DNA from: a virus
Direction: 5' to 3' (one strand)
Virus record (IMG/VR): IMGVR_UViG_3300041991_000048
Span: 1 to 55,603 of that record
DNA length: 55,603 nt
Shown in pieces: positions 2,537 to 36,167 of the stretch (position 1 is its first letter; each line of letters begins with the position of its first letter). Made by a program: the position numbers and the translations under genes. Below the pieces are notes generated by a model. The model had not been told where the DNA came from, ran no database searches, and saw only the letters and a list, made by a program, of their open reading frames with translations.

Positions 2537-2889
2537 AGCTGTGGATCGACAATGGTAGCGGACCTGTGCGCAATCCTGATCTGACTGATGAGGAATTTGC
2601 GGAAGGCATCGAGCAGATGAAGCAGACAAACATTTCAGATCTGTGGAATGCTGCGCACAACTATGAATACGCACAGATCAGCGGCACAGCGACAGGACTG
2701 TTGGTCCTTGGTGTGCTGAAAGGCATGCCAAAGTGTCTTGCCGTTCAAGCGTGGGTGACGTCAATCTGGAATCTCTACTATGTTCGCAAGCCTCTTGTCA
2801 CTCACGAGCAGAGCCTGGACATGATGGACTTCAGCATCTGTGGGCAGATGCCATACTCTGTCCCTGAGTTGATGGCTGAGGTGATGTAA
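2530..2889 (+). CDS. Hypothetical protein in the fibre block (119 aa)
   Basis: The ATG at 2530 overlaps the end of the 818-aa gene (ATGGTAG), with GGAG eight bases upstream. The N-terminal 30 residues are acidic (LTDEEFAEGIEQ). A hydrophobic stretch at about residues 55-65 (GLLVLGVLKG) could be a buried helix or a weak membrane segment. No family is recognised. Coupling to the fibre gene suggests an accessory role to that protein, such as a chaperone or a small virion component, but this is only position. Confidence 0.6.
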   Translation: MVELWIDNGSGPVRNPDLTDEEFAEGIEQMKQTNISDLWNAAHNYEYAQISGTATGLLVLGVLKGMPKCLAVQAWVTSIWNLYYVRKPLVTHEQSLDMMDFSICGQMPYSVPELMAEVM

Positions 2890-3449
2890 TGTCGTTTGGT
2901 GGATTTGGGACTGCAGCTCTTGGACTGGTAGCACTCAGTGCTGCTCCAGTTGACAGCGCAGCACAATTCACTTTTGCTGGTGTGACCTCTCTCATTGGCG
3001 AGCTTGACCTTCGTTCCAAAATTGATTTGTCGTTTGCTGGCGAAACGAAAACGACAGGATCCACCTCACTGCTAGTTCCAAAAACACTTCTGCTGACTGG
3101 GAGGACCACGCTTGTTGGATCCGTTGTTATTGATGTTCCTGCGATATTTGTTTTCTCAGGATCCAACTCCCTAGTCGGAAGCATTGATGTCCGAAGCGTC
3201 ATCACGCTATCGTTGCCTGGCAGGACTGAGCTGGTGGGTCGAGTTCGTTTGAAGTCTGCTCAGCAGTTTACATTCGCTGGTGTCACTTCTACTCGTGGCG
3301 AATTCTCATTGAACACCTATCAGTGGACCGCAGGACTGCCCATTGATAGGCTCGTTGCCTTGCCTCGCACATATCGTTTGGAATCAGAACCAAGAATCAA
3401 TATTCTTCGCTCCAACATTCGGAGCTATACTTTGGCAGCTGGGGAGTAG
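2889..3449 (+). CDS. Repetitive beta-rich virion protein (186 aa)
   Basis: The start overlaps the previous stop (TAATG). Residues about 25-150 consist of six imperfect units of about 20 residues, with a pattern close to F-x-F-x-G-x-T-x-L-x-G followed by alternating hydrophobic residues; two units share the run FTFAGVTS. Such spacing suggests a repeating beta-strand fold, as in a fibre shaft or beta-solenoid. The last 35 residues (basic, with RLESEPR and LRSNIRS) break the pattern and may be an attachment domain. No named family is recognised. A structural or decoration role is inferred from composition and neighbours. Confidence 0.6.
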   Translation: MSFGGFGTAALGLVALSAAPVDSAAQFTFAGVTSLIGELDLRSKIDLSFAGETKTTGSTSLLVPKTLLLTGRTTLVGSVVIDVPAIFVFSGSNSLVGSIDVRSVITLSLPGRTELVGRVRLKSAQQFTFAGVTSTRGEFSLNTYQWTAGLPIDRLVALPRTYRLESEPRINILRSNIRSYTLAAGE

Positions 3450-3451
3450 TC

Positions 3452-3754
3452 ATGGGTCAAGCATTCAGCAACAAGCGACAAGGCGAGACAGTCCGGCTCG
3501 GGTTTGATTTCTCTCCCATTTTGAATGCTGGCGTCACGCTCTTGACTGCCACATGGCGACTGATTGATCCTGAGGATCCTGATGTGGTGATAGCCGGAGT
3601 GTTTCCAGAGGGTCCTGCCATTGATGAGACTTGGGTCCTTCAGCGCTTCATGGGTGGTGACCCAAGCACGTCATATTATCATGAGATCACCGTCACCACC
3701 AGTGATGGACAGACACTCATTGAAACGCCCTCTCAACTCATCACCTGCATCTGA
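3452..3754 (+). CDS. Small accessory virion protein (100 aa)
   Basis: The start has GGGGAG five bases upstream. The protein has alternating strands, the sequence TATWRLIDPED near residue 30, and ends in a strand pair around YYHEITVTTSDGQ. This pattern resembles small beta-sandwich fibre-attachment or decoration proteins found beside phage fibre genes. The stop TGA overlaps the ATG of the next gene (TGATG). The exact role is unknown. Confidence 0.55.
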   Translation: MGQAFSNKRQGETVRLGFDFSPILNAGVTLLTATWRLIDPEDPDVVIAGVFPEGPAIDETWVLQRFMGGDPSTSYYHEITVTTSDGQTLIETPSQLITCI

Positions 3755-4836
3755 TGGAGTCCCGAATGAAGACCAAGCGAAGCGATCGTCAAGTTGCGAT
3801 GGATCGTCAGTCTGCTCGTTCAATCGACGAGCAGGGATTCCTTCATGTTGAGGGCTGCAACATAAGCAAAGCTTGTGTGAGTCCTTATTGGGGCTCTGAG
3901 ATTCCTGATCACAAGGAGTTGGGTCTCGATCCTGACAAGACCTATTACCTGTTCAGAGATCCTGATGAGCTGGAGAAGTCTGCTAGCACCTTCAACAATC
4001 TTCCTCTGATGGACTTCCACGTGGAAGTGTCTGCGGAAGAGTTGGAAGATGAAAAGGTGCGTGGCAAGATTGTTGGCAGCACAGGCACCAATGCAGTATT
4101 CTCTCATCCGTATCTCCAGAACACGCTTGTCATTTGGACTGCTGGTGCAATTCATGGCGTGATGAGCAAGGAGCAGACAGAACTGTCCTGTGCTTATCGT
4201 TATGAGCTTGACATGACTCCTGGTGAGTTTGAAGGAGTCAAGTATGATGCGCGCATGAAGAACATTCGAGGCAATCATGTGGCGCTTGTTGATGAGGGTC
4301 GTGCAGGTCCTGATGTCACAGTGAAGGATCGCAGGTCTGACAAGCTGCGCGTCAAGGTGGACATTGATGGTGTCGCAAAGATGGTGGCAGATGCCTTGCG
4401 TCCGATCCTGTCTGATCTTGAAACGTATCAGATGCCAAAGAAAGAAGCAATTGCGGAACACAAGCGCCTCGTTGGCGTTCTGAAGAGCGACAATCACAAG
4501 GATGATGCGGAAGAGGCTGAATTGAAGTCAATGATGCCTGAGGGATCAATTACGATTGATGCTGAACAAGAACCATCAATTACTGAGGAGGAAGACGATG
4601 AAAACGACACTGTTTCTGTTGAAGGAGAAAATGCCTATGAGAAAGTAAATTTCGCCGACGAAGTAAACAGGAAGTATCCTTTAGATACGCCTGAGCAAGT
4701 GCTCTCAGCCCTAAGAGAATGGGGTGAAATGAAAAACCGAAACGCATACTCAAAGGAGACGCAAACGGACATCACCAGCCGCATCAACTCAGCAGCACAG
4801 CACTTCAAGGTCGGCGACTTCGCCGAGGGCAAGTGA
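3754..4836 (+). CDS. DUF2213 head protein, likely prohead protease region (360 aa)
   Basis: Residues about 20-210 match what I know of the DUF2213 family, which sits next to DUF2184 capsid genes in myovirus head modules. Diagnostic stretches are LPLMDFHVEVSAEE, TELSCAYRYELDMTPGEF and IRGNHVALVDEGRAGPDV. The last 80 residues (from ENAYEKVNFADEVNRKYPL) resemble the small domain often fused to prohead proteases. Residues 225-300 are acidic and probably flexible. Family and context suggest maturation or assembly of the capsid. The start codon overlaps the previous stop and has no strong ribosome site, so coupled translation or a start at 3766 is possible. Confidence 0.75.
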   Translation: MESRMKTKRSDRQVAMDRQSARSIDEQGFLHVEGCNISKACVSPYWGSEIPDHKELGLDPDKTYYLFRDPDELEKSASTFNNLPLMDFHVEVSAEELEDEKVRGKIVGSTGTNAVFSHPYLQNTLVIWTAGAIHGVMSKEQTELSCAYRYELDMTPGEFEGVKYDARMKNIRGNHVALVDEGRAGPDVTVKDRRSDKLRVKVDIDGVAKMVADALRPILSDLETYQMPKKEAIAEHKRLVGVLKSDNHKDDAEEAELKSMMPEGSITIDAEQEPSITEEEDDENDTVSVEGENAYEKVNFADEVNRKYPLDTPEQVLSALREWGEMKNRNAYSKETQTDITSRINSAAQHFKVGDFAEGK

Positions 4837-4857
4837 CCCAATCACAAGGAGGCCCAC

Positions 4858-5771
4858 ATGGCCAATAAGATTCGAAAGATCACTACGCAAGGGCACGTCG
4901 TGAAGGGTGCCCTCGCTGCGTATGTCGGACCCAAGCTGGCGGCCGATGGCGCATTCAAGCCAGGAGAGCTCAACGAGGTGCTCAAGAGCATTCCTCCCAA
5001 GCCCTACAGCCTCTCATTGCGGACGCGATTAAGGCCAAGTTTGGTCCTCGCCTCGCAAAGGACCTGGACATCGACGACCTGCCCGACATTCTTGAGGCAC
5101 TCAAGAACTCGGACGATTTCAGCGAGGACGAAAATCCTGATGCTGACGTCGACACTCCTGATGTCAAGAAGAAGGAGGCTCTGCCGATCAAGGACGAGGA
5201 CAAGCCCAAAGAAGACAAGCCCAAAGAAGACAAGCTTGTCTCTGACGAGGAGGAGTCTGTCGCGTCTGATGAAGACGACGCTGGCACCAAACTCATGGCC
5301 ATGCTTGGCAAGTATGAGATTCCTGCAGAGGATCTCGAGCAGATCAATGAACTCATCAACGCTCTGTCTCAGAGCACTGGAGGAGAAATGAAGCCAGCCA
5401 TCGACGAGCTGCCTGAAGAGAAGGACAAGAAGAAGGAGGAGGCTCCCATCACCAAGGCAGCAATGGATCGTGCGCTTGCTGCGCATGATAGCGCCAATCG
5501 TGAACGAGTCAAGGCTCTGTTCACTGCTGCCGCTGACGTCGCTCCCTTCATTGGCCAGGTGGACACTCTCGCCTTCGATTCCGCCAACGACATCTATCGT
5601 CTGGCTCTGGATCATGCTGGCGTCAACATCAAGGGCGTGCATCCCAGTGCATACAAGGCCATGTTGAGCCTTGCGATGCAGCGTCCTGCCGCTCAGCCTG
5701 TCGTCGCCGCTGATGCTGCCTCTCACGAGGACTTCAACAAGCGATACACTCACATTCCGGCTCAGGCATAA
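4858..5771 (+). CDS. Acidic scaffold-like head protein read through a -1 frame change (about 304 aa)
   Basis: Translation starts at ATG 4858 behind an AGGAGG-type site. The plausible protein in that frame ends near base 5000; beyond it the frame reads as arginine/serine noise until a stop at 5391. From about 5004 the frame one base back is clearly coding through to TAA at 5771, with a long acidic linker (DEDKPKEDKPKEDK) and an ordered C-terminus. That second frame has no good start before 5295. The two parts belong together: AAYVGPKLAADG before the break and AKFGPRLAKDLD after it are copies of one motif. Size, acidity and position before the capsid gene suggest a scaffold or head-assembly protein. 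The frame change may be programmed, a real mutation or a sequence error. Confidence 0.6.
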
Positions 5772-5781
5772 GGAGGAACCA

Positions 5782-6765
5782 ATGCCCTTTCAGAAGCAGG
5801 TCAACACTTACCAGGCTCCTGCCAACTTGGGCGCCATTGCGTCCATGAATCCCCTGTCCACAGTTGCTGCTGGCCCTGGTGGGCTAGTGGCTGGCGCTGC
5901 TGGCGTCCTCGTCGGTCGTTTCGCGTGGAACACCTACCCTGTCGCGGGAGGCCCTGGCCTTGCGCAGAACATGTGCCCTATCTCCGACACTGAAGCCCCT
6001 CGCGTTCCTGATGGCTTCATCTGCAACCAGCAGCAGGGACTCATCACGCTGTGGCTCGGCAGCGAGAGCCTTGGCGTTCCTCATGGCGTGATGGTCACTG
6101 AGCATGATCGTGGCGACTTCTGGGCCCAGAGCACGATGAGCGAAGCGATCATCGGCAACAAGGTCTTCGCCAATCTCATCACAGGCCAGGCCCTCGCTGC
6201 GGCGGCTGGCTCCACGCCTGCCAGCTACAGTGGCACTCCTGCCGTGATCAAGGGCACAGTGGCGTCGCTCACCAACTTCACCATGACCATCACCGAAGTC
6301 ACCTCTGGTGTCGTCGCTCCTGGTCAGCTCGTTGTTGGCGAAAACATTCCCCAGGGAACCTACATCAGCTCGCTCGGCACTTCTACTGGCGGGACAGGGA
6401 CTGTGTTCCTCACTAGGAATGCCACCAAGCTCTTCACTGCCCAGGACCTGACCACCAGTGTGCCTGAAGCCTATGGCGCCTTCGATGGCACCGCAAGCTT
6501 CGCCACCGACGTCATGACGGTGACTGCTGTTCAGTCGGGTGCTGCCGTTGCGGGTCAGCTCGTCACTTCTGCGAATGTGGCTGCTGGCACCTACATCGTC
6601 GCCCAGCTGACTGGCACTCCTGGTGGTGCTGGCACCTATCAGCTTTCCACTGAGCCTGGCACCATCACCGCTCAGGACGTGAAGGCGACCTCCTGGATCG
6701 AGACGGACTGGTATGTGAAGTCTGCCGGCAACGTCATGGACCTCATCAAAATCGGCCTCAAGTAA
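5782..6765 (+). CDS. Head structural protein, possible cement or spike (327 aa)
   Basis: The start is ATG 5782 with AGGAGG six bases upstream; an earlier in-frame ATG at 5671 lies inside the previous gene and lacks a site. The N-terminal 140 residues have a DUF2190-like look (RFAWNTYPVAGGPG, then GVMVTEHDRGDFWAQ). Two tandem beta units follow (about residues 150-225 and 230-310), both with a VVAPGQLVVG or AAVAGQLVTS motif and ending in GTY..S or GTYQLS. Such units are seen in small structural repeats of virion proteins. It sits directly upstream of the major capsid gene, so a capsid cement or decoration role is likely. Confidence 0.6.
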   Translation: MPFQKQVNTYQAPANLGAIASMNPLSTVAAGPGGLVAGAAGVLVGRFAWNTYPVAGGPGLAQNMCPISDTEAPRVPDGFICNQQQGLITLWLGSESLGVPHGVMVTEHDRGDFWAQSTMSEAIIGNKVFANLITGQALAAAAGSTPASYSGTPAVIKGTVASLTNFTMTITEVTSGVVAPGQLVVGENIPQGTYISSLGTSTGGTGTVFLTRNATKLFTAQDLTTSVPEAYGAFDGTASFATDVMTVTAVQSGAAVAGQLVTSANVAAGTYIVAQLTGTPGGAGTYQLSTEPGTITAQDVKATSWIETDWYVKSAGNVMDLIKIGLK

Positions 6766-6780
6766 TAAGGAGCATACGAC

Positions 6781-7824
6781 ATGCGACAGAATCCCCACAT
6801 GCAGTTGCTGGCCGATCGTTTCGGTATCGTCTTCCCAGGCGCCACCGACTATCGGGACTCCCAGGCCGGACGCCTGGCAGCTGATCGCGTCCTCTCTGAT
6901 GCTGCGCCCACCAATCTGCTTCAGGCAGGCATGGTGACTTCCTACAACGCCAGCGTCCCTGCCTACCTTCTCAACTTCATGGATCCCGAGCTCACGCGTG
7001 TCTTGACTGCGCGCACTGCGGCTGCTGAGATCTTCGGTGAAGCGAAGAAGGGAGACTGGACGACCGACACAGCCACCTTCCCTGTGGTTGAGTCCACGGG
7101 TGAGGTTTCCAGCTATGGCGACCTCAGCAACAATGGCCTGGTTGGTGCCAACACCAACTTCGAGCCTCGTCAGTCCTACCACTACCAGACGTTCACTCGC
7201 TGGGGTGATCGTGAGCTGGAGCGCATGGGCAAGGCGAAGATCGACTGGGCTGCTGAGCAGAACGTCGCCGCTGCGCTCACGTTCGAGAAATTCCAGAACA
7301 AGAGCTACTTCTTCGGCATCAGCGGCCTCGACAACTTCGGCCTGTTGAATGATCCGGTTCTGCCTGCTCCTATCACTCCCACCACTGCGTGGTCTGGCGC
7401 CACTGGCCTCCAGATCTTCGGTGACATCCAGAATCTCTACAAGCAGCTCGCGCTTCAGACTGCTGGCAACATCACCATGAAGGATGAACTCACGCTGGCC
7501 ATGAGTCCCTTCACTGAAGCCTACCTGCTGACTCCGATGCAGAATGTCTATGGCAATGCCACTGTCATTGACCTCATCAAGAAGTCATTCCCCAACCTCA
7601 CCGTCAAGACTGCGGTGGAGTATGCCACTGACTCTGGCAACCTGGTGCAGATGATCGCACCTCGTCTTCAGGGACAGAACACTGGCTTCTGTGCTTTCAC
7701 CGAGAAGATGCGTGCCCACGCCATCGTGCGTGACACCAGCGCCACCTACCAGAAGAAGTCTGGTGGGACCTGGGGTGCCATCGTCAAGGTGCCTGCTGCT
7801 ATTGCCCAGATGCTGGGTGTCTAA
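6781..7824 (+). CDS. Major capsid protein, DUF2184 type (347 aa)
   Basis: This matches the DUF2184 capsid family in length and key stretches: YLLNFMDPELTRVLTA near residue 60, YGDLSNNGLVGANTNFEPR near 115, then RWGDRELERMGKAKIDW and a C-terminal region with AFTEKMRAHAIVRDTS. The family adopts the HK97 fold and builds the icosahedral shell. An AAGGAG site precedes the start. The gene has the crisp C-rich third positions often seen in strongly expressed phage genes. A terminator-like hairpin follows directly, which would raise the level of this message relative to the genes downstream. Confidence 0.88.
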   Translation: MRQNPHMQLLADRFGIVFPGATDYRDSQAGRLAADRVLSDAAPTNLLQAGMVTSYNASVPAYLLNFMDPELTRVLTARTAAAEIFGEAKKGDWTTDTATFPVVESTGEVSSYGDLSNNGLVGANTNFEPRQSYHYQTFTRWGDRELERMGKAKIDWAAEQNVAAALTFEKFQNKSYFFGISGLDNFGLLNDPVLPAPITPTTAWSGATGLQIFGDIQNLYKQLALQTAGNITMKDELTLAMSPFTEAYLLTPMQNVYGNATVIDLIKKSFPNLTVKTAVEYATDSGNLVQMIAPRLQGQNTGFCAFTEKMRAHAIVRDTSATYQKKSGGTWGAIVKVPAAIAQMLGV

Positions 7825-31468: not shown

Positions 31469-31777
31469 TCAGCCCTCCTTCTTGAAATAGATGATGTAGA
31501 TTCGCTTTTCCGTTTCAAGAGCAATGTGTCTGCTGCTTTCATCAATTCCATGATCATTGTTTGCCAGAGCAAGATTGATCAGCTTCATGATGCGTTTCAC
31601 CTGGACATCATTGATGTCCTCTTTGCTCAGATCAGTGCCCGTAGATGTTTTGAACCACTTTGGGTCGGTCGTTGACGGATAACGGTGCGTTCCAGCACCC
31701 CCACAGCAGCAAGCTCTGGCTCTGCCACTGTAAACGCTTGAGATTTCTTCCAAGGCCACTGCGATGCGACGCTTCAT
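31469..31777 (-). CDS. Hypothetical protein downstream of ribozyme 1 (102 aa)
   Basis: The start ATG 31777 lies seven bases after AAAGGAG. It contains a cysteine cluster (ACCCGGAG, near residue 22) and a helical C-terminal half with VKRIMKLINLALANND. It is the first gene after the hammerhead at 31,801-31,878, so its message would begin with the cleaved leader. No family is recognised. The genes downstream (to 27,112) follow with short gaps and may share this transcript. Confidence 0.6.
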   Translation of the reverse strand: MKRRIAVALEEISSVYSGRARACCCGGAGTHRYPSTTDPKWFKTSTGTDLSKEDINDVQVKRIMKLINLALANNDHGIDESSRHIALETEKRIYIIYFKKEG

Positions 31778-31800
31778 TTCCCTGCTCCTTTACGTGAGCG

Positions 31801-31878
31801 ATCTGGCTCATCAGCGGCAGGAGATCATTCCAGCCGGACGAGCGCCACCTGCTCGCGCTCGTTTCGCCTATTGAAGAT
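31801..31878 (-). ncRNA. Type II hammerhead self-cleaving ribozyme (copy 1)
   Basis: All fixed hammerhead core bases are present on the minus strand in the type II (stem II open) order: GGC-GAA-A, stem III, GTC (cleavage site), stem I, CTGATGA, GCC. Stem III is a perfect 8-pair helix, ACGAGCGC at 31,862-31,855 with GCGCTCGT at 31,845-31,838. Stem I pairs CGGCTGG (31,836-31,830) with CCTGCCG (31,821-31,815) around an 8-base loop, with one T-T mismatch. Stem II is GGC with GCC (31,868-31,866 and 31,807-31,805), possibly extended by ATCT with AGAT. Predicted cleavage is between 31,837 and 31,836. It overlaps the stop codon of the 56-aa gene and ends 24-28 bases before the next ATG. Activity is inferred from the conserved core. 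Confidence 0.88.
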
Positions 31879-32038
31879 GATGAACGATATCAGTTGGGCA
31901 CTCAATCAAGTGCTGTTCGGTGGTGAGTATCACAAGGCTGCTTTCCTTGACCTCATAAACCCAACCCCAGACTTTCTTACCAGCACCAGCATAACGATCA
32001 GGCACCACCGTTTGGATCATGTCGCTTTCTTTGAACAT
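31868..32038 (-). CDS. Small protein between the two ribozyme-led genes (56 aa)
   Basis: ATG 32038 directly follows the 184-aa gene stop (TGACATG). The reading frame gives FKESDMIQTVVPDRYAGAG, then a beta-rich part KKVWGWVYEVKESSLVILTT, and ends HLIECPTDIVHHLQ at TAG 31,868-31,870. The strand pattern suggests a small SH3-like barrel. No family is recognised. Its 3' end lies within hammerhead copy 1, so cleavage would trim the message close to its stop. Confidence 0.6.
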   Translation of the reverse strand: MFKESDMIQTVVPDRYAGAGKKVWGWVYEVKESSLVILTTEQHLIECPTDIVHHLQ

Positions 32039-32039
32039 G

Positions 32040-32594
32040 TCAGTCAGCGAACGTCAACTCAGCGTCGCCACCGTTGGACTCTTGAATGTGAATTGAGTTG
32101 AAGTAGTCATCAAACGCTTCTTCAACTATGTCTGCCGCAGTCCAGCGCTCTTGAATCATTTCCGTTTCAATGATGACGTAAGGAGTTTGATACTTGGCGC
32201 TCATTCCAAATTTTAGATTGATGCGCTCATTCCTCGGAACGACCATTCTTTCTTTGATCAGCTTGATTGCGCTCTCAGCAGCCTTTGTGTAAACTTTGCG
32301 ATTGAACTTTCGCGACTCAAGGTAGGAGTCAAAACAGAACGTCACATTTTCAACTTCAGTTTCATCCATGATCTTCTTGGCAGCTTCAAGCTTCAGCATG
32401 ATCTCTTCAGGATTAATCAGCACCACGCTGTTTTCTGATTGAGAGTCAGTCAGCTTGACAGCCAAAGCATTTTTGTAGTCTGGGCCAAGGGAGACAACTT
32501 CCCACGAAACAGAATCAAAATCGTAGAAGCCACCAATCACATACGTTTTGTTCATGGGGCTGTCGATGTTGATGGTAGTGATTTTGTTGCTCAT
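32040..32594 (-). CDS. Hypothetical protein downstream of ribozyme 2 (184 aa)
   Basis: ATG 32594 lies seven bases after AGGAG. The sequence is a mixed alpha/beta protein with INIDSPMNKTYVIGGFYDFD at the start, a lysine-rich middle (KVYTKAAESAIKLIKERMVV) and an acidic C-terminus. No family is recognised. It is the first gene after the hammerhead at 32,618-32,700 and after a non-coding stretch of about 590 bases. Confidence 0.6.
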   Translation of the reverse strand: MSNKITTINIDSPMNKTYVIGGFYDFDSVSWEVVSLGPDYKNALAVKLTDSQSENSVVLINPEEIMLKLEAAKKIMDETEVENVTFCFDSYLESRKFNRKVYTKAAESAIKLIKERMVVPRNERINLKFGMSAKYQTPYVIIETEMIQERWTAADIVEEAFDDYFNSIHIQESNGGDAELTFAD

Positions 32595-32617
32595 TTCATT
32601 TCTCCTTTACTTGAGCG

Positions 32618-32700
32618 ACCTGGCTCATCAGCAGGATGGAGTCATTCATCCTGGACTGCCCCACAACCTTCGTGGGGACAGTTTCGCCTTCAGCAGAGGT
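32618..32700 (-). ncRNA. Type II hammerhead self-cleaving ribozyme (copy 2)
   Basis: The same fixed core as copy 1 is present in the same order: GGC-GAA-A, stem III, GTC, stem I, CTGATGA, GCC. Stem III is ACTG-(T)-CCCCAC (32,682-32,672, bulge at 32,678) with GTGGGGCAGT (32,664-32,655). Stem I is a perfect 7-pair helix, CAGGATG (32,653-32,647) with CATCCTG (32,638-32,632), around the loop AATGACTC. Stem II is GGC (32,688-32,686) with GCC (32,624-32,622), possibly extended by ACCT (32,700-32,697) with AGGT (32,621-32,618). Cleavage is predicted between 32,654 and 32,653. Stem sequences differ from copy 1 yet stay paired, which strongly supports the fold. Confidence 0.9.
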
Positions 32701-33293
32701 TGATCGAGCGTCACAGGCTTCCTGCGTTGGGCTCCAACTCAGAGTCTCATCCTTTTGGTCTCGCAGCAAGCATCACAGTGCTTGATCTCTGCTCCACCAA
32801 CATTCCGTTCCACTGGTTGTTTGATCACCTCCCACTATCAGTCGTCGCCGCCACTAAGTCGACAACTGGAAAACTCACTCGCACACCAGACCACCACGAG
32901 GAGCGTTTCAACTTTTCAAATCACAAGCTCATCATCAGGCTGCTTCATTTCGCACGGAGTGGAAAACTCACACCACCAGCTCAACTTATCACCAGACTTC
33001 CACCAGCTTGCTTCGGGCCACCGACCCCAGGTTCCGTCAGCCTCAACTTTCGGACCTGACTTATTATCGCGCCAGTTTCACCAGTTTGGCAGAAAAAATG
33101 ACAATTTAAGTATCAGTAAATAGGCCACTTATATCACAAAAATAAATTTCTGCCATATTGTTTCAGCCCCAGGCCTTTTGCGTAAGTATTGATAATAAAG
33201 GAGCTATAGTCGCACATATTGGGCTTTAGGGCCCAGGGTCCAATTTCTGGTCCCTAGGCCCGAGCTTAGCGCTGGCTCGTGATAGCGAGCAGC
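32701..33293 (-). other. Non-coding region upstream of ribozyme 2 (about 590 bases)
   Basis: No minus-strand frame of credible length is open here, and the plus-strand frames have no ribosome site. It contains an A/T-rich part (33,060-33,200), a G/C-rich hairpin at 33,229-33,261, and two copies of TGGAAAACTCAC (32,867-32,878 and 32,960-32,971). The A/T-rich part includes GCGATAATAA on the minus strand near 33,060, also seen upstream of the H1-like gene near 44,055. It may hold a promoter, a long leader RNA or a replication origin. Confidence 0.55.
33128..33156 (-). promoter_or_regulatory. Possible promoter for the ribozyme-led genes
   Basis: On the minus strand ATGGCA (33,156-33,151) and TATAAG (33,133-33,128) are 17 bases apart, close to the sigma-70 consensus boxes. 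It lies in the most A/T-rich part of the gap between the polymerase and the 184-aa gene. Score by eye only; other A/T-rich boxes nearby could serve instead. Confidence 0.3.
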
Positions 33294-36167
33294 CTAGCCC
33301 TGCGCAATCTCGGCTGGATCATCAGGCTTCTTCGCATACATTGGGTTGGCGCCGATCCCGCTCAACTTTCTCCAGTTGGTAATTCTCACCTGACGGAAGC
33401 CGGATTTGACTCTGCCTTTGAAAATGAACCAGTCGTTCATGCGACCCTCTTCAATCAATGGCAGGCCCAGCTTCAAGTAGTCGTGTCGGTCCACCATGCA
33501 AGGAATCTGGTCGGTGTCATCCTCTGCGGTGAACAGCACCATGAGTGCCTGGCCTCTGATGATTGAACCATTGCGTTTCTTCACATGGGTTGGGTCGTTG
33601 AGGTCTCGCAGATCCTTCTCTGTGATCTTGGCAATGAAGCAGCAGTCAACTTCATAGTCCTCACACTGGATGTGCTCAACATTCTTCATCCTGGACTTGA
33701 TGGCATACTTCTCTGGGTTGGCCTTGAGATGGCCCCACAGCTCTTCACACTCAAACAAATGGTCGAAGGGAGTGAGTCCATTGGCCAGCTTGTTTGTCTG
33801 AGAAGCAGTCAGCTCTGCGCCATGAGAACGACGCTTGATGATGTCATCTGCCATCTTATCACCGACACCCTTGATGTTGGTGAGGCCTCCGATGAGCACG
33901 CCATCTTGAACAGACCAGTGCTTCTGAGACAGCATGGCATCATATGCTCGGAACTCATAACCCTCCTTGACGAGCTCACGCAGAAGCCTGATGCTCTGTG
34001 TTTCGTCGCGAGCATTGCGCAAGCAGGCTGCACCAAACTCAAGAGGGAATTTCGCCTTCAAGAGCATGCACCAGTAGCTCACCATGGCATAGGCGACTGC
34101 GTGGCTGCGATTGAAACTCCATGAGCCCATCGTGTTGATCTGATTCCAGACGCGCAGCGCATCATCCTCTTCGATGCCTTGCTCGATGGCACCCACGCGG
34201 AAGCGAACCCAATACTGATCGAAGAACTCCTTGCCCAAGCTCTTGGACATAGCCTTGCGCAGAGAGCTGACGTCCTCCCAACTCAGCTTGCCCATCTCAC
34301 GAGCAATCTGCATCACCTGTTCCTGATACACAACCACGCCATAGGTGACTTCTGTGGTGTGAGCGATCATTGGGTGAAGTGGGACCGTTGGATTCTCACC
34401 AGTTCTGCGGCGAATGTATTCTGTCGTGCCACCAGAGTGAAGAGGACCAGGACGAGCCAGAGCTGTCACCGCAGCAATGTCTTCAAAATTCTCGATGAAC
34501 ATCTGACTGATGAGCGACTGAAGCGCATGACCTTCAAACTGGAAGATGCCAGCAAACTTCTTGTCGTTGAGCACCTTGAAGGCAAGCACATCATCAGTTG
34601 GGTAGGCCATGAGCTGCTCTCGCGACCAACCAACTTGATCCAAGCAGTCCTGAAGCACAGACAATGTTCGCAGGCCCAGCGCATCGATCTTCAGCAAATT
34701 TAGCTTCTCAGCATCGTGCTTGTCGATCATGACAGCACCAGTCTGTTCATTGATGGAGCAGAAGTTATGCAGCGGATCAGACGTCACCACGATCCCGGCT
34801 GCATGTTGGCCGAAGCCGGAGGCGTGGCCTTCGATGTCGCCTGCGAGGATCATCTGCGGGAACTTCTTGATGACGTTCTGTCCGACCTCCAATTCATTGA
34901 AGGTGTCAAGGATGCAGAAGCCTGCACGAGAGTCGCCTGTGCTGCGCTCAATGATACTGTTCTTCAGATTGGTGACTTCCCAGATGGGAACGCTCAGTGC
35001 TTTGGCGATTGTGTCGATGGCGCTCTTGGCCTTGTATCGCATGACGGTGCCCAGTCGTGCTACCTGTGGCGCACCATACTTCTGCTTGAGATACTCAAAC
35101 ACCATGTCGCGCCTATCATCAGGGAAGTCGATGTCGATATCAGGAAGGTCGGCACGATTGATGTCGATGAAGCGTTCAAACAGAAGGCCATAGGGGATGG
35201 GATCGATCTCTGTGATGCTCAGAAGATAGCACACGAGAGATCCGCAGGATGAACCACGCGCAGGACCGACCAGCATCTCAGTCTTTGCGTAGCGAACAAG
35301 ATCCCACACCAGATAGAAGTAGTCCTCAAATTTCTTCTCTGCGATCATGTCAAGCTCACGCGTGAGACGATCAGCATACACCTTGTCCTTGAGGTTGACA
35401 TTGCGAGCAGGAGCAAACTCCTCACAGAGTGTGCGTAGAGAAGGAAGCTTGGGATCAGACTTCACCATTGATGCCCGAGGCAGCTCAGCATTGCACATCT
35501 CTGCGATGGCAGTTGTGTTCTTGAGTGCGTCTTCATTTCCTGGCCAGATGATCCTCCACTCATCATCGCTGAGCATGTGCATCGGCGACACACTCATCAT
35601 CTTGTCTCTGCCAGCAACAGCCTCATACACGTCCTTGTCCTGAACACGAGGATAGCGAGGATCAGACACTGCGACAGTTTTCATTCCTCTCGTGCGAGCA
35701 AACTCTGCTGCCTTGATTGGCGACATAGGCCCAAGCTCAACATAGAGGTTGTCACGCTTGGGCAAACTGCCCCACACAGGGTGGGCTCCTGATAGTATGA
35801 TGATCTCATCGCTGACATCAAACAGAAACGCATAGTCGAGTCGTGGAACATAGTAGTGATGCTCTGGTCGAGTGCTGATGCTGATGATCTCATACAGCTC
35901 TTTGAGTCCAGCATTGCTCTTGGCAAGGAAGGCCATCATGTTGATGCCTTGCTTGGTCTTGGACTTCATATCATTGACGACTGCCAGCTCAACGCCAAAG
36001 ATCGGTTTGCGCTTCAGCTTCCTGCAAGCATCATTCCACTCCACGTGACCAAAGGTGTTGGCAGTATCAGTGATGGCAGCAGGACCATTGGTGACTGCTA
36101 GCACCTTGTCGATTGATCCGAATACCTGCCTGAATGAATACTCAGTGCGACAACGAAGCTGAAACAT
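33294..36167 (-). CDS. DNA polymerase III alpha-type polymerase, DnaE-like (957 aa)
   Basis: The C-family polymerase core is complete: GPARGSSCGSLVCYLLSITE near residue 300, the catalytic pair in LPDIDIDFPDDRR (about residues 342-350), YKAKSAIDTIAKALSVP, the third acidic residue in LLKIDALGLRTLS (about 490), and SYWCMLLKAKFPLEF in the fingers. A helix-hairpin-helix-like segment (IKGVGDKMADDIIKRR) follows near 770. The N-terminal PHP domain has lost the usual His ligands (RCRTEYSF in place of HVHSEYS), so proofreading there is unlikely. No clear clamp-binding motif is seen. The exonuclease gene next door probably supplies editing. Confidence 0.88.
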   Translation of the reverse strand: MFQLRCRTEYSFRQVFGSIDKVLAVTNGPAAITDTANTFGHVEWNDACRKLKRKPIFGVELAVVNDMKSKTKQGINMMAFLAKSNAGLKELYEIISISTRPEHHYYVPRLDYAFLFDVSDEIIILSGAHPVWGSLPKRDNLYVELGPMSPIKAAEFARTRGMKTVAVSDPRYPRVQDKDVYEAVAGRDKMMSVSPMHMLSDDEWRIIWPGNEDALKNTTAIAEMCNAELPRASMVKSDPKLPSLRTLCEEFAPARNVNLKDKVYADRLTRELDMIAEKKFEDYFYLVWDLVRYAKTEMLVGPARGSSCGSLVCYLLSITEIDPIPYGLLFERFIDINRADLPDIDIDFPDDRRDMVFEYLKQKYGAPQVARLGTVMRYKAKSAIDTIAKALSVPIWEVTNLKNSIIERSTGDSRAGFCILDTFNELEVGQNVIKKFPQMILAGDIEGHASGFGQHAAGIVVTSDPLHNFCSINEQTGAVMIDKHDAEKLNLLKIDALGLRTLSVLQDCLDQVGWSREQLMAYPTDDVLAFKVLNDKKFAGIFQFEGHALQSLISQMFIENFEDIAAVTALARPGPLHSGGTTEYIRRRTGENPTVPLHPMIAHTTEVTYGVVVYQEQVMQIAREMGKLSWEDVSSLRKAMSKSLGKEFFDQYWVRFRVGAIEQGIEEDDALRVWNQINTMGSWSFNRSHAVAYAMVSYWCMLLKAKFPLEFGAACLRNARDETQSIRLLRELVKEGYEFRAYDAMLSQKHWSVQDGVLIGGLTNIKGVGDKMADDIIKRRSHGAELTASQTNKLANGLTPFDHLFECEELWGHLKANPEKYAIKSRMKNVEHIQCEDYEVDCCFIAKITEKDLRDLNDPTHVKKRNGSIIRGQALMVLFTAEDDTDQIPCMVDRHDYLKLGLPLIEEGRMNDWFIFKGRVKSGFRQVRITNWRKLSGIGANPMYAKKPDDPAEIAQG

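Follow-up and report, generated by a model that had tools for sequence, protein, structure and literature searches.

Two type II hammerhead ribozymes that probably punctuate the replication-module transcript of a phage

What might a self-cleaving RNA be doing directly ahead of a phage gene, in the middle of a row of co-oriented genes? The question is raised by the window analysed here – the whole 55,603-base stretch of DNA, an IMG/VR virus record – in which minus-strand genes run from the polymerase genes on to a phrog_421 gene and a helicase (Table 1), the closest annotated relatives of the polymerase, about 40% identical, coming from phages that infect Gram-negative bacteria. Downstream of the polymerase there are about 600 nt of apparently non-coding DNA (32700-33290) without a plausible minus-strand gene, followed by a hammerhead-like motif, ribozyme 1, and a 184-aa gene. 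A reading made earlier from the letters alone (the sequence-only reading) had called this an early gene; that label is unsupported, the gene lying in the replication module downstream of the DNA polymerase III alpha-like gene.

The 184-aa protein has no match in PHROGs or Pfam and no viral relative in IMG/VR, and its AlphaFold2 model from the single sequence (mean pLDDT 46.5) was too poor for a structure search. Searched by blastn, the region found no counterpart among 50,697 phage records, and the promoters and terminators predicted around the site barely exceed those in shuffled sequence (4 versus 1.9 and 4 versus 2.8, respectively). A two-codon reading frame on the minus strand (32599-32592, ATGAAATGA) overlaps the start of the 184-aa gene.

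Table 1. Ribozymes, their parts and the neighbouring genes, in the order of the minus strand.
Feature	Position	Strand	Remarks
DNA polymerase exonuclease subunit gene	36,731-36,177	minus	
DNA polymerase III alpha-like gene	33294..36167	minus	upstream of ribozyme 1
Ribozyme 1, type II hammerhead	32612..32688	minus	RF02276 34.2 bits; descriptor match
Ribozyme 1 GGC	32688-32686	minus	
Ribozyme 1 GAAA	32685-32682	minus	
Ribozyme 1 GTC	32656-32654	minus	
Ribozyme 1 predicted cleavage site	32654/32653	minus	after GUC
Ribozyme 1 stem I	32653-32632	minus	7 perfect pairs, 8-nt loop
Ribozyme 1 pseudoknot	32617..32643	minus	loop I GACU (32643-32640) with tail GGUC (32620-32617)
Ribozyme 1 CTGATGA	32631-32625	minus	
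Ribozyme 1 alternative hairpin	32613..32626	minus	GAGC (32626-32623) / GCUC (32616-32613)
Ribozyme 1 GCC	32624-32622	minus	
Shine-Dalgarno AAAGGAG of 184-aa gene	32602..32608	minus	
184-aa ORF	32040..32594	minus	directly behind ribozyme 1
56-aa ORF	31868..32038	minus	its TAG stop codon (31870-31868) shares one base with ribozyme 2
Ribozyme 2, type II hammerhead	31795..31868 or 31797-31869	minus	RF02276 42 bits, above the gathering score
Ribozyme 2 predicted cut	31837/31836	minus	
Ribozyme 2 pseudoknot	31800..31826	minus	loop I GAUC (31826-31823) with tail GAUC (31803-31800)
Ribozyme 2 alternative hairpin	31796..31809	minus	GAGC/GCUC
Shine-Dalgarno AAAGGAG of 102-aa gene	31785..31791	minus	
102-aa ORF	31469..31777	minus	behind ribozyme 2; phrog_24766, function unknown

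Ribozyme 1 presents the complete set of hammerhead elements on the minus strand in the order GGC, GAAA, stem III, GTC, stem I, CTGATGA, GCC and tail, as the sequence-only reading had proposed. Its stem II is GGC/GCC, and its stem III comprises nine pairs and an A–U closing pair around a single bulged U, matching the ten-pair helix with one bulge described before; the perfect seven-pair stem I was likewise recovered. The cut, which we take from knowledge of the hammerhead family to follow the GUC, falls at the same position as in that reading. The expectation that the Rfam type II model would score this RNA well was borne out in significance and not in bits: RF02276 (Hammerhead_II) gives 34.2 bits, below its gathering score of 37 bits, with E = 0.0032 over all families and E = 7.6e-7 when the record is searched with this one family, so that ribozyme 1 is sub-threshold for Rfam yet clearly significant by this score. 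The alignment to the model has a gap in the 3' tail, and in the minimum-energy fold the tail pairs with GGCGA and stem II is not formed.

A further ribozyme, absent from the sequence-only reading, lies 820 bases beyond the first, before the next segment of the operon. Ribozyme 2 carries the catalytic core CUGANGA, GAAA and GUH in type II order, and the two share the tail AGRUCGCUCA, then the Shine-Dalgarno sequence (SD) AAAGGAG and then an ATG 27 nt past GCC. A descriptor of the core and stems I, II and III matches the window at exactly these two sites; 200 first-order Markov shuffles gave no match, and a search of the window for more or degenerate copies found none beyond these two. Judged by core, order, closed stems I and III and open stem II, ribozymes 1 and 2 are type II hammerheads.

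Their tertiary contact can be assessed by comparison. In an alignment of 45 ribozymes of equal length, mostly from different phages – its rows selected to have four or more stem I pairs, with no demand on the pseudoknot – 91.5% of the cells of stem I and the pseudoknot are paired, against 58.9% after shuffling and 35-45% when the partners are slid by one to three positions. Changes on both sides that keep the pairing occur at all seven stem I pairs and at three of the four pseudoknot pairs. The covariation points to selection on the structure and supports the pseudoknot between loop I and the tail of ribozymes 1 and 2.

A pseudoknot of loop I with the 3' tail is present in a majority of type II members. 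Perreault et al. (2011; PMC3088659) discovered type II hammerheads in nature, together with this pseudoknot and the occurrence of several copies around phage genes; in their hands multi-hammerhead constructs cleaved in vitro – for an Agrobacterium set also in Escherichia coli – and they suggested processing into gene-length mRNAs. The RF02276 hammerheads described there and those of the window are alike in core, open stem II and pseudoknot, and in standing in several copies on either side of a single phage gene or a short gene block; on one strand there are two copies in the window and three in L123, a relative described below. By these shared features the window ribozymes are new members of the type II hammerheads known since 2011. 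The accessible 2011 text, however, contains neither a spacing rule from stop codon through ribozyme and SD to start codon, nor the alternative hairpin discussed below, nor the phage group of the window. The same source describes the HHphage ribozyme of haloviruses HF1/HF2, which resembles the present case in its site, a replication region where it precedes a start codon by 13 nt, and for which a transcript 5' end was mapped within three nucleotides of the cut site, but which differs in its archaeal virus, its variant core and in being described as one copy (PMC3088659).

How general the placement is could be asked with ribozymes gathered from IMG/VR by their sequence alone, with no condition on neighbouring genes. 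Among the matches listed, 265 non-redundant phage loci (one ribozyme each) formed the layout sample. The upstream stop codon ends between -6 and +2 nt from the ribozyme in 188 of them (71%; 4.4% for random positions), and an SD with a start codon follows 10-42 nt downstream in 193 (73%; about 10% for random positions), at a median of 26 nt and an interquartile range of 21-30; both sides hold in 135/265. Three stem II variants, collected separately, have the same layout. Motif matches in bacterial genomes follow it when they also have the stems (56% for the stop codon and 71% for SD and start) and not when they lack them (4% and 5%), and a core-violating pattern of equal complexity occurs only 15 times across IMG/VR, always without stems, against at least about 120 times for each true pattern. 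This set, GGTGAAAC..CTGATGAACC, had been meant as a fourth test of the alternative hairpin, but proved to consist of chance matches and was used as a null. The order stop, ribozyme, SD and start is, as far as these loci show, the normal layout of phage type II hammerheads, and the position before a ribosome-binding site, which the sequence-only reading had thought unusual, is in fact the usual one. No gene ends 5' of ribozyme 1, given the roughly 600 nt of apparently non-coding DNA there, so that it fits the rule on its downstream side only.

Of 279 loci, at least 56 contain more than one ribozyme, and the covariance model finds 7-11 in several records. A cultured example is Streptomyces phage Diane (L604, MF766046), with nine ribozymes in 7 kb, most of which end 10-21 nt ahead of an annotated start; the genes so preceded include the OCR-like anti-restriction gene gp69 and the acetyltransferase gp76. 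As these genes were annotated by others, their fit makes the start codon rule independent of our own finding of reading frames. The annotated starts of gp65 and gp78 fall inside a hammerhead, the true starts probably lying downstream of the ribozyme. The idea that downstream genes form a single functional class was dropped: there are 126 distinct proteins, no PHROG being matched by more than three, and those with names are mainly HNH endonucleases.

Relatives of the window place the ribozymes at the same site with different company. In L123, whose polymerase is 76% identical and which is the nearest relative on a contig of sufficient length, three hammerheads stand at the corresponding place, the third preceding a homologue of the 102-aa gene (44% identity). 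The 184-aa and 56-aa genes are missing from it, their place being taken by unrelated genes of 78 and 264 aa that have a hammerhead each. In another (L455) the 102-aa homologue is 33% identical and has a hammerhead directly before it, with three more around. Among other viral homologues of the 102-aa gene, no hammerhead was seen directly upstream in 18 of 20, which implies that the gene family does not need the device; being kept in L123 and L455 and not in these 18, the ribozyme would follow an operon position or a gene cassette rather than one protein family.

Some features of these relatives deserve mention in their own right. The gap before the L123 ribozymes has the same size as the roughly 600 nt of the window and holds tandem 75-nt repeats (L123 10842-11015), within which lies an inverted repeat of 15 perfect base pairs; the two gap sequences are not alike. 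The four L455 ribozymes combine CUGAUGAUGAC with GUCGAAAC, so that stem II seems to need a bulged U beside the core, and several of them nonetheless score above the Rfam cut-off.

A second state of the RNA is suggested by the tail. Just beyond the pseudoknot strand, both window ribozymes carry GCUC, complementary to the GAGC in CUGAUGAGCC. Pairing of this kind (GAGX with XCTC) excludes stem II and therefore fits the 3' product after cleavage. In the predicted 3' product, ribozyme 2 forms the GAGC/GCUC pairs with a probability of 0.96 and ribozyme 1 with one of 0.25. Across ribozymes with a long stem I, those with CUGAUGAGCC have the tail GCU[C/U] 15 times and CCU[C/U] three times, whereas those with CUGAUGAGGC have CCU[C/U] 14 times and GCU[C/U] never. 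For CUGAUGAGUC (set D) the tail ACU[C/U] was predicted before the scan and found as ACU in 14 cases against 6 others (p = 1.3e-6), this set being mostly of the short-stem-I class and the hypothesis having been framed on the long one. In the 3x3 table of stem II variant against tail, the matched triplets number 15, 17 and 14 and the unmatched 13 (chi-square p = 2e-11). Only some 12% of ribozymes have the XCTC element. Ribozymes of the short-stem class mostly extend stem II by one pair, formed by the first base of the tail and the base that precedes GGC. A broader form of the idea, general complementarity of the tail to CUGAUGAG, was rejected, 43/200 and 47/200 permuted cores being as good, and only the XCTC form survived. 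The pattern suggests a covarying hairpin formed after cleavage – a new observation that needs an independent check.

What, then, would the two ribozymes do? The sequence evidence provides ribozyme identity, pseudoknot covariation, the layout from stop to start codon and the covariation of the alternative hairpin. In the reading that we favour, with a probability of roughly 0.7, the two type II hammerheads punctuate the replication-module transcript of this phage into independent, protected messages. Hammerhead cleavage leaves a 2',3'-cyclic phosphate on the upstream RNA and a 5'-OH on the downstream one. Each ribozyme would fold during transcription, have its fold locked by the pseudoknot between loop I and the tail, and cut after GUC. 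The upstream RNA would then keep an intact reading frame and stop codon and end in the stem III hairpin with its 2',3'-cyclic phosphate, while the downstream RNA would begin immediately at the stem I hairpin, which would bear the 5'-OH, and have its own SD and start codon behind. Since the ribozyme lies between stop codon and SD, neither reading frame would be harmed by the cut. Once the RNA is cut, the XCTC of the tail may pair with the GAGX that the core no longer uses, forming another small hairpin; this would make religation less likely and keep the SD in an unpaired stretch; computed SD accessibility is 0.566 in cut and 0.525 in uncut RNA (p = 1e-6), a small gain. Ends capped by hairpins, together with a 5' end that lacks a phosphate, could slow the main bacterial decay routes, and the polycistronic RNA would be split into units, each translated and degraded independently of those beside it. 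That the RNA is cut in the cell, that its ends are protected and that the units are insulated is inferred from the sequence evidence.

Comparable systems are known. The RNase III sites between the early genes of phage T7 likewise have a phage polycistronic RNA cut into single-gene messages with hairpin ends, although there a host protein cuts and a 5'-phosphate is left. The engineered insulator RiboJ (the sTRSV hammerhead plus a hairpin), which raises transcript levels about twofold, also has the hammerhead directly before the SD, so that the cut leaves a 5' hairpin ahead of it, but it derives from a plant satellite RNA and stands after a promoter rather than between genes (PMC6206723).

Other readings start from the same observations. 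The most serious of them, and still an unlikely one, is a regulated switch, in which ribosomes on the upstream gene, a ligand or an anti-ribozyme action of the tail would control cleavage and the ribozyme would act as an on/off control of the downstream gene. In 66-72% of cases the upstream stop codon touches the ribozyme or reaches into it, so that a terminating ribosome would cover the GGCGAAA strand and could delay folding, which makes a translation-coupled switch conceivable, and GAGX/XCTC pairing allows the tail to compete with stem II. Tight gene packing alone could put the stop codon there, however, the XCTC element is confined to the minority of ribozymes given above, and no ligand-binding domain is present; pseudoknot hammerheads, moreover, are fast (PMC3088659, PMC11300833). 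The intact frames, the hairpin-capped ends and the RiboJ-like order favour punctuation and insulation over regulation. Circularisation is highly improbable: the pair would free a unit of about 817 nt (32653 to 31837) with the 184-aa and 56-aa genes, whose ends would be ligated. Two hammerheads on the same strand do flank such a unit, with compatible 5'-OH and 2',3'-cyclic phosphate ends, but most collected loci have one ribozyme seen (the at least 56 of 279 above having two or more), and spliced or circular products sought in similar phage arrays by Perreault et al. were not found (PMC3088659).

That the genes between the polymerase and the 102-aa gene differ entirely between the window and L123 while the ribozymes are kept, and that the tail AGRTCGCTCA is common to copies within one genome, might also indicate a selfish or recombinational element, a short mobile or homology patch for cassette shuffling in which cleavage matters little. 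Yet stems I and III differ among copies with pairing kept by double changes, and random insertion would not give exact placement between stop and start, which makes this quite improbable. Mere chance, which the simplicity of hammerhead motifs and the sub-threshold score of ribozyme 1 could have suggested, is refuted on sequence grounds by two copies in one operon, 0/200 shuffles, covariation and the same site in relatives.

The punctuation reading can be extended, tentatively and with rather more doubt than confidence, to phage type II hammerheads at large, as a standard element between cistrons, ordered stop, ribozyme, SD, start, with a second state in which the tail would capture the core after the cut, make the reaction one-way and give the new 5' leader its shape. 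If so, phages would have evolved the insulator that synthetic biologists designed, a natural and widespread equivalent of synthetic ribozyme insulators, in which each accessory gene cassette brings its own message boundary, with up to 9-11 copies of the device per phage record. The 2011 paper did not settle what hammerheads do in bacteria and phages, and the strict placement between stop codon and SD points to mRNA punctuation; cultured phages such as Diane, with its nine copies, make this testable. Neither the quantitative placement rule nor the GAGX/XCTC hairpin was found in the open-access papers searched, which is weak evidence of novelty. Gene calling is affected too, some annotated phage start codons falling inside a ribozyme.

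The collected ribozymes also vary in architecture. A second class, with a stem I hairpin of about 17 nt, accounts for over a third of them. In IMGVR_UViG_3300038412_000035 (L185/L204, G071), whose polymerase is 45% identical to that of the window, ten type II hammerheads of this class lie within 5 kb (2569-7558), with a tiny UUAG/UUAU stem I loop and no pseudoknot.
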